Assembly (NCBI GenBank): GCA_003132165.1
Contig: PKWW01000050.1
Location: 11,612 to 75,611 of the forward strand
Reading direction: 5' to 3'
DNA from: Acidimicrobiaceae bacterium
GTDB taxonomy: Bacteria; Actinomycetota; Acidimicrobiia; Acidimicrobiales; RAAP-2
DNA length: 64,000 bases
Position numbers and translations under genes: made by a program. Below, one piece after another: positions 40,155-40,687 of this stretch. The notes beneath the pieces were generated by a model. The model ran no database searches. It worked only from the letters and a program-made list of their open reading frames with translations, and had not been told where the DNA came from. Position 1 is the first letter of the stretch, and the number at the start of each line of letters is the position of its first letter.

Positions 40155-40183
40155 CCGCTCGGAGAATGCGCTCAACCGAGCGG
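40155..40183 (-). terminator. Hairpin at the 3' end of the riboflavin synthase gene
   Basis: CCGCTCGG-N13-CCGAGCGG perfect 8-bp arms overlapping the stop codon; no U-tract. Confidence 0.5.
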
Positions 40184-40687
40184 TAGGGGACCGGCATCGT
40201 CGAAGCCCTGTCGTACGCCCTGACCCGCGCGTCGGCTGAGTTGCTCGGGCTCGAACAGCATCCAGTAGGCGTTGCGGGCGTGCTTTCGCGAGCGGTTCTC
40301 GAACACCGAGGCGAGCACCTGGGGGTCGTCGGCCTCGTCCTCGTGCACGAAGACCTCGAGTATCGGCGTCGAGGTGAGCAATTGCGCCTGCATGATCCCC
40401 TGGGCGGCTTCGTGGGCGCACTGCTTGTCAATCGGTGCCGAGCCCGGCATGCCGAGCGCGACCACGATCGAGCAGCCATCCTTCTCGATGAGGTTCTTCG
40501 CGGCGACCGCGAGGTCCTTGAAGCCGGGGACGGTCTTCGCCACGACCTCGAATGTCTCGCCGTAACCGGGGCACTGTGCGAGTTCGGCGCGTGCGGCTCC
40601 CCCCATGTCGTAGCGGGCGAACATCGTGTCGACGACGCCGATGCGGACCTTCTTGTCCGACTTTGGTGTTTTATTCTTCTTGGTCAT
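40172..40687 (-). CDS. ribC: Archaeal-type riboflavin synthase (lumazine-synthase-related RibC)
   Basis: 171 aa; RIGVVDTMFARYDM, TVPGFKDLAVAAKNLIEKDGCSIVVALGMPG, DKQCAHEAAQGIMQAQL, EVFVHEDEADD, GQGVRQGFDDAGP. Confidence 0.87.
   Translation of the reverse strand: MTKKNKTPKSDKKVRIGVVDTMFARYDMGGAARAELAQCPGYGETFEVVAKTVPGFKDLAVAAKNLIEKDGCSIVVALGMPGSAPIDKQCAHEAAQGIMQAQLLTSTPILEVFVHEDEADDPQVLASVFENRSRKHARNAYWMLFEPEQLSRRAGQGVRQGFDDAGPLPLG

Follow-up and report, generated by a model that had tools for sequence, protein, structure and literature searches.

For the last, essential reaction of riboflavin synthesis, bacteria have one enzyme and archaea another, unrelated one; riboflavin synthase is the textbook case of this situation. 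The trimeric bacterial enzyme, RibE (PF00677), and the archaeal enzyme, RibC, catalyse the same reaction with unrelated folds. The 64,000-nt stretch of DNA analysed here (the window) encodes an archaeal-type RibC in a bacterium, which raises the question of whether it has taken the place of RibE or works beside it. The sequence-only reading of the window left that choice open. We consider it very probable (about 0.92) that this bacterium has no riboflavin synthase other than RibC, the archaeal-type enzyme having replaced RibE and not supplementing it. Family identity, predicted fold, the absence of RibE, a short operon gap, the complementary distribution of the two enzymes, synteny and purifying selection are the directly supported parts of this explanation.

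Identity of the gene product

The coordinates of ribC and its neighbours are given in Table 1. The ends and the length of the open reading frame had been read exactly in the sequence-only reading, and the coding strand is the minus strand. Translated from the plus strand, the same interval has an internal stop and gives unrelated sequence. The start codon is ATG. The first residues form a low-confidence tail, and the conserved core begins at approximately residue 14.

Table 1. Features of the window at and around ribC.
Feature	Coordinates	Strand	Remarks
phosphomannomutase/phosphoglucomutase-like (PMM-like) ORF, 448 aa	37277..38623	+	context; conserved neighbour, named from sequence
acetyl-CoA acyltransferase (thiolase), 402 aa	38889..40097	-	context; 74 bp downstream of ribC, most conserved neighbour
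ribC, archaeal-type (lumazine-synthase-fold) riboflavin synthase, 171 aa	40172..40687	-	ORF, profile, structure and alignment evidence
LLM-class oxidoreductase, F420_Rv3093c subfamily, 317 aa	40753..41706	-	context; 65 bp upstream of ribC, adjacency not generally conserved
PPK2-family polyphosphate kinase, 263 aa	41744..42535	-	context; belongs to conserved neighbourhood

Against TIGR01506 (ribC_arch, an NCBIfam equivalog with a cut-off of 100.55) the protein scored 178.8 bits over model positions 2-151 of 151. It is 55% identical to RibC of Methanocaldococcus jannaschii, and all six motifs named from the sequence were found in it. The claim of an archaeal-type RibC is thus borne out, as is its placement in an actinobacterial chromosome, here of the order Acidimicrobiales; the profile search that had been proposed as a check was passed. 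When solved structures were searched by sequence, the only matches were M. jannaschii RibC and constructs derived from it (2b98, 4y7k, 4y7j, 5im5), with E about 1e-50. The two lumazine-binding domains that characterise RibE (PF00677) have no match in the protein. Among 44 homologues the invariant columns include D20, T21, F23, CAHEA (90-94), EVFV (111-114), R159, Q160, G161, G166 and P167, and the invariant residues are also present in M. jannaschii RibC.

An AlphaFold model of the monomer, built with the 44 homologues, had a mean pLDDT of 91.2 and a pTM of 0.85. Its best structural match was the archaeal riboflavin synthase 2b98_C (rmsd 1.3 Å, TM 0.95 over the target). The protein presumably assembles as a homopentamer, and it is predicted to dismutate 6,7-dimethyl-8-ribityllumazine to riboflavin. 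The gene is kept in about a hundred related loci and its median pN/pS against 79 homologues is 0.16, indicating purifying selection, so that the observation of an archaeal-type riboflavin synthase at this position is confirmed and far beyond chance.

The riboflavin pathway of the host and its relatives

The host genome is a draft of 2.3 Mb in 71 contigs and is 94.7% complete. No match to PF00677 was found in it, and the same search was positive in 10 of 10 bacterial control genomes. A true RibH is encoded by a separate gene on another contig (TIGR00114, 142.3 bits). The genome-wide check for bacterial ribE and ribH thus gave ribH as present and RibE as not found. The operon order is priA-like, def, fmt, rpe, ribD, ribBA, ribH, where the last three were confirmed by NCBIfam and the first four were named from sequence. 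Relatives bearing RibE typically have the order ribD-ribE-ribBA-ribH. The ribD and ribBA matches of the host are 2 nt apart, and in RibC-bearing genomes where both were seen they are separated by 2-183 nt, too short a distance to leave room for ribE. No FMN riboswitch was found at the gathering threshold near ribC or in the host rib operon. One does occur in a relative (G110), just upstream of ribD in an operon of the RibE type (L117 7210-7341, minus strand).

A census of 299 Acidimicrobiales genomes, scored for RibC, RibE and RibBA (DHBP synthase domain), found them in 47, 192 and 239 genomes, respectively. Among the 239 genomes with RibBA, 46 had RibC only, 187 RibE only, one had both and five had neither (Fisher p 2.4e-42, a value which overstates independence because of common ancestry). 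The complementary pattern is repeated in many Acidimicrobiales families, and it lends indirect support to the predicted dismutation activity. Together with the missing PF00677 match and the operon gap, it places the protein on the replacement side of the choice. Neither synthase was found in 61 of the 299 genomes; 56 of these are also without RibBA and seem to have lost the pathway. Four high-quality genomes of the order (G002, G019, G051 and G075) have none of the three and are apparent riboflavin auxotrophs. Two points count against replacement. The host genome is a draft, although its relatives show the same pattern, and one genome of the same genus (G235; L191, L200), 96% complete, has ribD-ribBA-ribH intact with neither RibC nor RibE detected. 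The RpoB of that genome lies on a very long branch.

Wider samples were searched for the same proteins. In a class sample of 247 genomes, 18 were over the RibC cut-off and none of these had PF00677 over its cut-off; one of the carriers (G106) had a weak single PF00677 match (E 1.8e-4). Across the phylum, 398 sampled genomes included 10 carriers, all of them Acidimicrobiales. When 85,488 species genomes were scanned, 411 loci that encode a relative were obtained. The best 80 of the 411 are 77-92% identical and come mostly from MAGs titled Acidimicrobiaceae, Acidimicrobiales or Actinomycetes. Six records carrying ribC are titled Acidobacteria or Saccharibacteria (L033, L049, L055, L080, L081 and L088); since most have the gene order of Acidimicrobiales MAGs, wrong titles or mixed bins are the probable cause. 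Viral contigs gave no relative with the window RibC as query, nor did phages when M. jannaschii RibC was the query, and carriage on a plasmid was seen in one Streptomyces record only.

The most serious competing explanation is that RibC is an extra, special-purpose enzyme, related to a flavin analogue or to F420, and that a normal RibE was missed in the draft genome. There is a precedent for it: roseoflavin-producing Streptomyces carry in their rosB cluster an archaeal-like RibE2, a further riboflavin synthase credited to horizontal transfer (PMC11039241). The enzyme of S. davaonensis and S. berlinensis, like the copy of S. camelliae (WP_270086807.1), is likewise an archaeal-type synthase in an actinobacterium. 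The S. camelliae protein is over the TIGR01506 cut-off and 65% identical to the window RibC, and its gene lies near ribA, ribX and rosB on a 273-kb linear plasmid (NZ_CP115301.1, L133, 107630-108106). One genome of the order (G805, family f123) also has both kinds of enzyme. However, RibE2 is an extra enzyme in the rosB cluster beside a normal RibE1, whereas the window RibC is the only synthase found, lies outside any flavin-analogue cluster, and is of a type present in many families of its order. Its neighbours (thiolase, LLM, PPK2 and others) include no ros genes, all 47 RibC-bearing genomes of the census have RibBA while 46 of them are without RibE, and the operon gap speaks against an overlooked ribE at its usual position. 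We therefore regard an extra enzyme as improbable. In G805, a RibH2-like lumazine synthase gene is immediately followed by a divergent archaeal-type ribC (L260 3995-4962) whose product scores 120 bits and is 44% identical to the window RibC. That genome retains RibE and RibBA, and its ribC represents a second type of archaeal-type synthase within Acidimicrobiales, one that looks supplementary.

RibH (PF00885/TIGR00114) is of the same superfamily and fold as RibC, and the protein could in principle be a divergent lumazine synthase, ie a paralogue of RibH. PF00885 indeed matches it with 56.1 bits, which is accounted for by the fold and ancestry common to RibC and RibH. Against this, the TIGR00114 score was 28.9 bits, below the cut-off of 84.6, and the best lumazine synthase structures matched the model with a TM of only about 0.74-0.76 and an rmsd of >3 Å. 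The C-terminal motif RAGxGxRQGxxDAGP, which in the alignment is common to RibC and M. jannaschii and in large part to Streptomyces, is missing from the genome's own RibH, which stops short of it. A full RibH is, moreover, already present in the rib operon. A paralogue of RibH is accordingly very improbable, and the earlier claim that the protein is not RibH has held, given the low TIGR00114 score and the separate RibH gene. Archaeal contamination of the assembly, which a protein family typically archaeal among the control genomes might suggest, is refuted by the same gene order in dozens of independent assemblies, including a 1.2 Mb contig (L038), and the GC content around ribC is uniform at 60-67%.

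Acquisition and gene neighbourhood

Lateral acquisition of ribC is very likely. Its origin is naturally read as transfer from archaea, since the named control genomes over the TIGR01506 cut-off were all archaeal (M. jannaschii, S. acidocaldarius and M. acetivorans). The RibC tree sets 42 Acidimicrobiales rows apart from its remaining members (M. jannaschii, S. camelliae and G805) with weak support (66/0), and its deep branches are weakly supported. On the RpoB tree, a single sub-clade (31 rows, support 91/92) holds 26 of 26 sampled RibC carriers together with five RibE-bearing rows, one from family f3 and four from f13. A single clade for the carriers alone was rejected (p-AU 0.003), so that several exchanges, or a gain plus a reversal, are needed. 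Either RibC entered once, with RibE returning or temporarily coexisting in some lines, or it passed repeatedly between neighbouring lines. Of the four f13 genomes with RibE that were examined, three have ribE at the standard operon position, and the RibBA tree did not discriminate for or against re-acquisition of the whole rib operon by these members. A history in which this lineage of Acidimicrobiales swapped RibE for the archaeal-type enzyme more than once, and switched in both directions (for instance within f13), has in our estimate slightly less than an even chance.

Close relatives keep the PMM-like, thiolase, LLM, PPK2 and membrane-protein genes around ribC, and it is because of these conserved neighbours that the gene is considered an old resident there. 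The thiolase is directly adjacent to ribC in 57 of 70 loci with room to tell. For the LLM-class oxidoreductase the figure is 23 of 73, and in families f5, f13 and f23 the regions flanking RibC gave no LLM match. The sequence-only reading had hinted at a link of ribC to this neighbour and to F420. Both Fo and riboflavin synthesis use 5-amino-6-ribitylaminouracil, and the genome does appear to be capable of producing F420, in line with what had been claimed: it has an FbiC-like 756-aa frame, in which a CofH domain scores 475.5 bits, over its cut-off, and a further match is weaker, and the LLM belongs to the Rv3093c F420 subfamily. The adjacency is nevertheless too inconsistent across loci to serve as evidence of a functional link, and the case for such a link is weak.

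If RibC has replaced RibE, its substrate 6,7-dimethyl-8-ribityllumazine would come from the RibBA, RibD and RibH encoded in the same genome, all of the bacterial type. RibC would then dismutate two molecules to riboflavin and 5-amino-6-ribitylaminouracil, and the latter could be released back to RibH or into Fo/F420 synthesis. The simplest reading of the gene arrangement is that ribC arrived elsewhere in the chromosome and that ribE was then deleted from between ribD and ribBA of an otherwise intact operon.

Relation to known systems and significance

The closest characterised counterpart is M. jannaschii RibC (PDB 2b98/2b99; TIGR01506), which the window RibC resembles in fold, motif series and the C-terminal RQGxxDAGP. 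In contrast to that enzyme, it is bacterial and would act downstream of RibD, RibBA and RibH of the bacterial type, not of archaeal enzymes. In some bacteria, RibE has at its C terminus a signal that directs its encapsulation within cages of lumazine synthase (PMC13376624). Since RibC is unrelated to RibE, channelling of that type, by encapsulation in a RibH cage, is not expected here. The extra RibE2 of Streptomyces, encoded within an antibiotic cluster, is an established bacterial example of an archaeal-type riboflavin synthase. A search of the literature, with subscription journals mostly outside it, found no report of such an enzyme as the sole riboflavin synthase of a bacterium.

The host and many of its Acidimicrobiales relatives thus appear to have a riboflavin pathway which is part bacterial and part archaeal in type. 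Bacterial families with the archaeal-type enzyme in a housekeeping role, and with ribE gone from the operon, make a well-sampled case of non-orthologous replacement. Annotation that seeks only the bacterial RibE would misjudge these organisms as riboflavin auxotrophs. If repeated exchange in both directions is true, this lineage would offer a natural experiment in how an essential metabolic enzyme is replaced by a non-homologous one, together with the loss of a partner that is enclosed by lumazine synthase cages in some bacteria.
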